The position numbers and the translations under genes were made by a program. This document shows positions 46,259-47,116 of a DNA stretch of 64,000 nt, one piece after another. The DNA lies in NCBI RefSeq assembly GCF_000237825.1, contig NZ_CM001377.1, positions 1,762,276-1,826,275 of the forward strand, given 5' to 3'. Numbering within the stretch: the stretch's first letter is position 1; every line of letters starts with the position of its first letter. The notes below the pieces were generated by a model. The model saw only the letters and a program-made list of their open reading frames with translations, did not search any database and was not told the origin of the DNA. The stretch comes from Thermanaerovibrio velox DSM 12556. GTDB taxonomy: Bacteria > Synergistota > Synergistia > Synergistales > Synergistaceae.

Positions 46259-47116
46259 ATGGCAGACATGAAGATAGGTTTCATCGGAGGAGGCGAGGGG
46301 GCCCTCAAGATAATGCGTCACCTCATGAAGCTGGACTTCAAGATCGCCGGGGTGGTTGACATCTCCGATGACGCCCCCGCCATGAGGGAAGCCCGTCAGC
46401 ACCACATACCCACCTTCAAGAGGATGGAAGACCTGTTGAGCCGTCCCTGCGACCTGGTGATAGAGGTCACCGGCAGGGACTCGGTGGCCAAGGAGGTGGA
46501 GGAGAAGAAGTCCCCCAGGACCGGCCTGCTGCGCTCCCAGGACGCCCGGTTCCTCTACGACATAATCGCCAAGGAGGATGAGAACTCCCGGGTCATAACC
46601 CGGCAGATCGAGGAGATAATAAAGCTCCGGAAGGCCCTTTCGGAGATACTTAAGCCCCTCAAGGAGGCGTTCGACTCCCTGGCATCGGGGAACAAGGACG
46701 TGGAAGGCACCATGAAACCCATGCTGGAGGCCATGGAGCGGCTCACCCAGGAGACCCAGCGGTCCGACGAGCTGGTTAGCACCATACATGCCATAGCCAG
46801 GCAGACCAAGATGCTGGGGCTCAACGCCGCCATCGAGGCCGCCAGGGCGGGGGACATGGGCAAGGGCTTCGCGGTGGTGGCGGACGAGGTGCGCAAGCTG
46901 GCGGAACAGACCACCGCCTCGGTCCAGGAGGTGGGGGACGTGCTCACCGACATAGCGGAGATCTCCAAGGCCCTCGGGGAACCCATAAAGCAGTTCAGCG
47001 CCGTGGCCCAGAACAGGGTCAAGACCATAGAGGCCATAAAATCCCAGGTGGAGAGCCTGTCGTCCATGGTGGCCTCCGCGGAGGCCGTGGAGGCCAGGCT
47101 CCGGGAGATCCTGTAG
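46259..47116 (+). CDS. Soluble chemoreceptor with an N-terminal Rossmann nucleotide-binding domain
   Basis: This 285-residue protein has no membrane helix. Residues 1-75 form a Rossmann-like unit with the glycine-rich loop [16 protein letters not shown], then [25 protein letters not shown] and DLVIEVTG, as in the NAD(P)-binding part of dehydrogenases. After a coiled linker comes the MCP tip ([20 protein letters not shown] and [14 protein letters not shown], about 190-222). The family combination is rare as far as I know; sensing of NAD(H) or a metabolite is inferred. A GAGGGGG lies about 12 bases before the ATG; an ATG at 46268 is an alternative. Confidence 0.87.
   Translation: [285 protein letters not shown]

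Follow-up and report, generated by a model that had tools for sequence, protein, structure and literature searches.

A predicted Rossmann-fold sensory module on a short soluble chemoreceptor of Thermanaerovibrio velox and on other bacterial signalling proteins

Locus and neighbouring genes

The window, by which we mean the whole 64-kb stretch of Thermanaerovibrio velox DSM 12556 DNA that was analysed, carries a gene whose product joins an N-terminal Rossmann domain to an MCP signalling part. The open reading frame was originally predicted from the sequence and proved to be intact, with an ATG at 46259 and a stop codon at 47114-47116. The gene and the elements on either side of it are as follows.

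45641..46156, minus strand: corrinoid adenosyltransferase gene of the cobO type (PF02572, 215 bits), divergent to the Rossmann-MCP gene
46259..47116, plus strand: Rossmann-MCP gene, intact open reading frame of 285 amino acids
47191..47219, no strand: perfect GC-rich inverted repeat, read directly, between the convergent MCP and DUF6672 genes

The cobO and MCP genes are also paired in a further genus of the same family (L064) and, judging from antisense open reading frames, in the two remaining Thermanaerovibrio genomes as well (L062, L063). The inverted repeat, which lacks a T run and was not flagged by the scan, is a possible shared terminator of the MCP and DUF6672 genes. No riboswitch or other RNA was found within the window. 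An alanine/sodium symporter-like gene (43242-44754, plus strand) reads as two overlapping open reading frames in different frames, 43242-44198 and 43957-44754, which suggests that the gene is frameshifted or that the draft carries a sequencing error.

We looked for an operon partner conserved among the relatives of the gene and rejected the idea: cobO adjoins it in family f1 of the Synergistota alone, and metH in family f11 alone, where the metH-like operons were recognised by eye, and the neighbours differ elsewhere, so that no gene partner conserved across lineages was found. Since the neighbours vary between lineages, we claim no functional link from them. A few module genes lie, as judged by eye, next to genes of redox or central carbon metabolism, for example a 2-oxoacid:ferredoxin oxidoreductase (L073), or malate synthase and isocitrate lyase (L079); a metabolic link from these is suggestive only. 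In one genome of family f11, a PocR-type sensor-like gene, also named by eye, is located 20 bases upstream of the Rossmann-MCP gene (L065, 7395-8198).

Fold and extent of the N-terminal domain

The first part of the protein was delimited by AlphaFold, Foldseek and an alignment of homologues.

46259..46579, plus strand: Rossmann sensor module, residues 1-107

An AlphaFold run on residues 1-115, with six natural sequences as input, gave a model with a pLDDT of 92 and a pTM of 0.83, in which strands at residues 5-9, 28-33, 66-69 and 89-91, with a short pairing near 52-53, alternate with helices at residues 13-24, 40-47, 56-60, 74-83 and from 93 onward. The predicted domain has the parallel sheet and the alternating beta-alpha order of a Rossmann fold. 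The top Foldseek match in the PDB was the NAD domain of the acylating acetaldehyde dehydrogenase 1nvm (E 5e-4, TM up to 0.70), and further matches were to pyrroline-5-carboxylate reductase (PYCR1), oxidoreductases of the Gfo/Idh type, YjhC with NAD(H), and aspartate dehydrogenase. By sequence, the N-terminus had sub-threshold matches to PF03447 (NAD_binding_3, E 0.014) and to the aspartate dehydrogenase model NF009830 (E 0.0024), and a PDB sequence search with the protein gave nothing solid. The protein was not among the listed Pfam matches to PF01408 (GFO_IDH_MocA), and its likeness to this family comes through relatives only. Five distant relatives passed the PF01408 cut-off of 24 bits (L040, 34.8; L043, 30.3; L057, 28.2; L096, 27.8; L042, 26.0), and the module of Acetoanaerobium noterae also matches acetaldehyde dehydrogenase over residues 1-107. 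Because the AlphaFold confidence, the Foldseek matches to NAD(P)-dependent dehydrogenases and the homologues passing PF01408 agree, the N-terminal domain (residues 1 to about 105-107) is, on the predicted structure, a real, small Rossmann domain. Furthermore, the Rossmann-MCP architecture occurs in 13 of 188 Synergistota genomes, representing 7 genera, and this conservation means that the domain is not a chance reading of a single sequence.

The original prediction had described the N-terminal 75 residues as a dehydrogenase-like nucleotide-binding unit. Its fold and its motif stand, the model being of Rossmann type and keeping the nucleotide-binding motif, but the proposed length does not, as homology extends to about residue 107, with strand 5 at 89-91 and helix 5 starting at 93. 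The same prediction considered the protein too short for a catalytic domain, and this holds: the C-terminal catalytic alpha/beta domain of Gfo/Idh/MocA enzymes is missing and an MCP hairpin occupies its place. Among the module proteins that were read, no catalytic dehydrogenase domain was seen.

Residues of the putative nucleotide site

In dehydrogenases with this fold, the cofactor is held by the loop that follows strand 1 and at the ends of strands 2 and 4. All three places are marked in the window protein by residues that are conserved over 43 distinct modules, the remainder of which is divergent.

46286..46303, plus strand: GGGEGA, residues 10-15, GxGxxA dinucleotide loop (G10 in 40 of 43 modules, G12 in 37 of 43)
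46358..46360, plus strand: Asp34 at the end of strand 2, the acidic position of NAD type (D or E in 35 of 43)
46463..46474, plus strand: E69-V70-T71-G72 after strand 4 (T or S at 71 in 43 of 43, G72 in 39 of 43)

In the model these places correspond to residues 10-15, which make up the strand-1 loop, to residue 34, just past strand 2, and to residues 69-72, where strand 4 ends; in addition, A45 is kept in 41 of the 43 modules. The window protein has both the GxGxxG/A loop (G10, G12, A15) and the strand-2 acid (D34), with alanine replacing the third glycine of GxGxxG. The FIGGGEGA loop had been proposed as a nucleotide-binding motif, and its conservation across the modules supports this. However, not every copy has kept it. 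Three GAF-GGDEF relatives (L102, L107, L109) have lost the glycines of the loop, so dinucleotide binding is not required of every copy, and these proteins may form a natural series in which the site decays or takes on a new purpose.

Signalling part and chemosensory setting

The C-terminal part was assigned by Pfam and by comparison with the other MCPs of the genome, and its connection to the sensor was taken from a full-length model.

46535..46606, plus strand: Rossmann helix 5, starting at residue 93 and, in the full-length model, extending unbroken into the MCP coiled coil
46703..47110, plus strand: MCP signalling hairpin (PF00015)

Residues 149-284 match PF00015 with 101.8 bits (E 5e-29, cut-off 34.6), and the hairpin tip is retained, with the sequence QTKMLGLNA compared with QTNLLALNA in most other receptors of the genome. 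The arms are short: about 93 residues follow the tip glutamate, compared with 136-185 in most receptors lacking an evident extra C-terminal domain. No transmembrane segment was found (the largest 19-residue hydropathy is 0.83), which indicates a soluble protein, and the description of a minimal soluble MCP signalling domain is thus upheld. The consensus methylation site [ASTG]2-x2-[EQ]2-x2-[ASTG]2 had no match in the protein or in the seven relatives tested. The full-length AlphaFold model shows an unbroken helix over residues 93-284, with a pTM of only 0.53, and the geometry of the hairpin is not to be read from it.

Thermanaerovibrio velox DSM 12556 is a motile, sulfur-reducing anaerobe with lateral flagella, and the products of its sugar fermentation are acetate, lactate, hydrogen, CO2 and ethanol (PMC3910556). 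Its genome, searched as a single contig of 1,880,838 bases, encodes about 20 MCP domains, two CheA, several CheW, two CheR and a Rex repressor; the two CheA proteins (frames of 685 and 760 amino acids) were named from a CheW-type domain, their length and their cluster. The cheA and cheW partners that a chemoreceptor would call for are thus present in this motile fermenter. A second chemosensory cluster (L117, genome 1478.5-1490.5 kb) contains a CheW-like protein, CheR, an MCP with the unusual tip QSNLLAVNAAVEAARYSDGGKGF, CheA, a CheB-like protein and a receiver protein, in which the domain names apart from CheW, CheR and MCP were read by eye. Receptor arrays generally consist of receptors of one arm length and, given its short arms, the window receptor probably lies outside the main array.

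Distribution of the module

A profile made from ten of the Synergistota domains (A1) was run over 392 genomes and found the same domain outside the Synergistota on other outputs. A wider profile (A4) was run over 385 genomes around one non-Synergistota match and gave full-length modules in about 29 of them, 28 outside the Synergistota, in a count made by hand that includes only matches reaching the end of the profile. Matches of the broad profile that end at about position 72-94 resemble ordinary oxidoreductases (for instance L110, a Gfo/Idh enzyme) and were left out, as were weak matches in other Synergistota genomes (L051-L055), which by eye are dehydrogenase-type enzymes. The module is also present in named Bdellovibrionota and Bacillota records, and a viral or phage origin was rejected, with no match in viral contigs or phages. 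The outputs assigned by Pfam are listed here; those of the remaining module proteins were read from the sequences by eye.

L040: sigma-54 activation domain with a Fis-type HTH
L043, L096: GAF-GGDEF
L048: GGDEF-HD
L108: GAF-GGDEF-HD
L042, L074: HisKA-HATPase with receivers
L092, L100, L101: histidine kinases with PAS or GAF-PAS
L026 (Oligoflexia MAG), L057 (Acetoanaerobium noterae): MCP

In a tree of the 43 distinct modules, computed from 106 columns with a bootstrap that had not settled, at least 9 changes of output are needed, as expected of an input domain. Fourteen of the 15 MCP modules form one cluster, modestly supported (81/82); the exception, from A. noterae, sits apart on a long branch. 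This is a mobile module with a sensory role, and taxis would be only one of its outputs next to those of sigma-54 activators, histidine kinases and diguanylate cyclases. The suggestion that the sensor drives chemotaxis or another output missed that the module reaches far beyond the MCP fusion.

Interpretation

We consider it reasonably likely, on the predicted structure, that the window protein functions as a cytoplasmic chemoreceptor and senses through a minimal, non-catalytic Rossmann domain similar to that of Gfo/Idh/MocA proteins, which binds a dinucleotide, most likely NAD(H). The simplest reading would be a sensor that binds NAD(H) and relays its occupancy or redox state to the coiled coil, given the absence of a catalytic domain and the direct helical connection to the output; a non-catalytic NAD-binding Rossmann domain can act as a redox sensor, as in Rex. 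The ligand, or its redox state, would be read at the C-terminal ends of strands 1, 2 and 4, beside the start of helix 5. A change at the nucleotide site could then twist or shift the MCP coiled coil through the continuous helix 5, and a CheA kinase docked on the tip of the hairpin would change its activity in response. The fold, the conserved site residues, the mobility of the module and the direct helix connection were all computed, the last being a prediction, and from these we infer the identity of the ligand, switching driven by it, and a taxis output of the window receptor. The module probably does the same job on sigma-54 activators, histidine kinases and diguanylate cyclases elsewhere. 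That it is a pan-bacterial non-catalytic NAD(H)-sensing module, plugged into chemoreceptors, histidine kinases, diguanylate cyclases and sigma-54 activators, is a plausible extension that we hold at slightly under an even chance. Several features would count against an NAD(H) receptor, namely the alanine at the third glycine, the glycine losses in L102, L107 and L109, the short MCP arms, the absence of a methylation consensus and the absence of a conserved partner.

Alternatively, the architecture may be the same and the ligand another nucleotide-bearing metabolite, such as acyl-CoA, a UDP-sugar, ADP-ribose or an intermediate of the corrinoid pathway, which we regard as rather unlikely. Related Rossmann folds bind CoA or UDP-sugars, the relative L040 has a weak match to the CoA-binding domain PF02629, weak YvcK/CofD matches were also seen, and the adjoining cobO in Thermanaerovibrio and one other genus, like the metH-like operons of family f11, could point to corrinoids. 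However, the strand-2 acid together with the T-G after strand 4 is a dehydrogenase pattern, the closest folds bind NAD(P), and the neighbours vary by lineage.

It is less probable still that the module is in general a sensor of NADP(H) or of the redox ratio, with the cofactor chosen in each lineage by the residues that follow strand 2. Rossmann enzymes that prefer NAD usually have an acid after strand 2, and an adjacent arginine in a domain lacking the acid usually points to NADP. L043, L047, L094 and L100 have the latter pattern, with no acid at position 34 and arginine at the next, whereas Asp34 is present in the window protein and all Synergistota members. Conservation of the site over the 43 modules, with an acid at 34 in 35 of them, favours NAD(H) over NADP(H). 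The weakest proposal, a ligand-free relic or protein-protein interaction platform with the MCP part as a receptor-array scaffold, would accommodate the short arms, the missing methylation consensus, the degenerate MCP hairpins of L026 and L045 and the glycines lost in some GGDEF members, but it is very doubtful, since a relic would not be expected to keep the glycines, Asp/Glu34, T71 and G72 across most of 43 divergent copies.

If the NAD(H) reading is right, direct readout of a pyridine nucleotide would let a single receptor protein join central metabolism to motility, and the module would give bacteria direct control by NADH/NAD over motility, c-di-GMP and transcription, as a general metabolic input domain largely overlooked by standard annotation. 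Its breadth suggests that a so far uncharacterised gauge of NAD(H), or of a similar molecule, is in wide use inside bacterial cells.

Comparison with known systems

In the open-access literature, to which the search was confined (subscription reviews lay outside its scope, and domain databases may list the architectures), no description of a Rossmann or NAD-binding chemoreceptor or of the module was found. A census of c-di-GMP input signals (PMC8846402) and a 2026 review of aerotaxis (PMC13401364) do not mention a Rossmann domain. MCPs, Rossmann domains and the design of a sensor plus an output are each familiar; what sets the present case apart is their combination and how widely the module occurs.

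The fold, the GxGxxG/A loop, the strand-2 acid and the strand-4 T-G/P are shared with the N-terminal domain of Gfo/Idh/MocA proteins (PF01408) and with the NAD domain of 1nvm, from which the window protein differs in having no catalytic domain, in ending in a signalling helix and in falling below the Pfam cut-off. Rex, encoded in the same genome (G000, 589 kb), likewise senses the NADH/NAD ratio with an NAD-binding Rossmann domain that is not catalytic, and we infer a comparable sensing role for the module. In Rex, however, a winged-helix DNA-binding domain precedes the Rossmann domain and the action is on transcription, whereas the module is N-terminal and drives an MCP; the window protein had no match to the Rex profile or to its N-terminal winged helix, the true Rex of the genome being elsewhere. 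Redox sensing by known energy-taxis receptors, such as Aer, depends on FAD held in PAS domains. The window protein would resemble Aer and other PAS-FAD receptors as an MCP that senses redox state in the cytoplasm, although Aer is anchored in the membrane and senses with a FAD-bearing PAS domain, while the window protein has a Rossmann domain and no membrane segment. Finally, short cytoplasmic MCPs such as the globin-coupled HemAT share the plan of a soluble sensor followed by an MCP hairpin, with a sensor fold that is unrelated to the Rossmann module.
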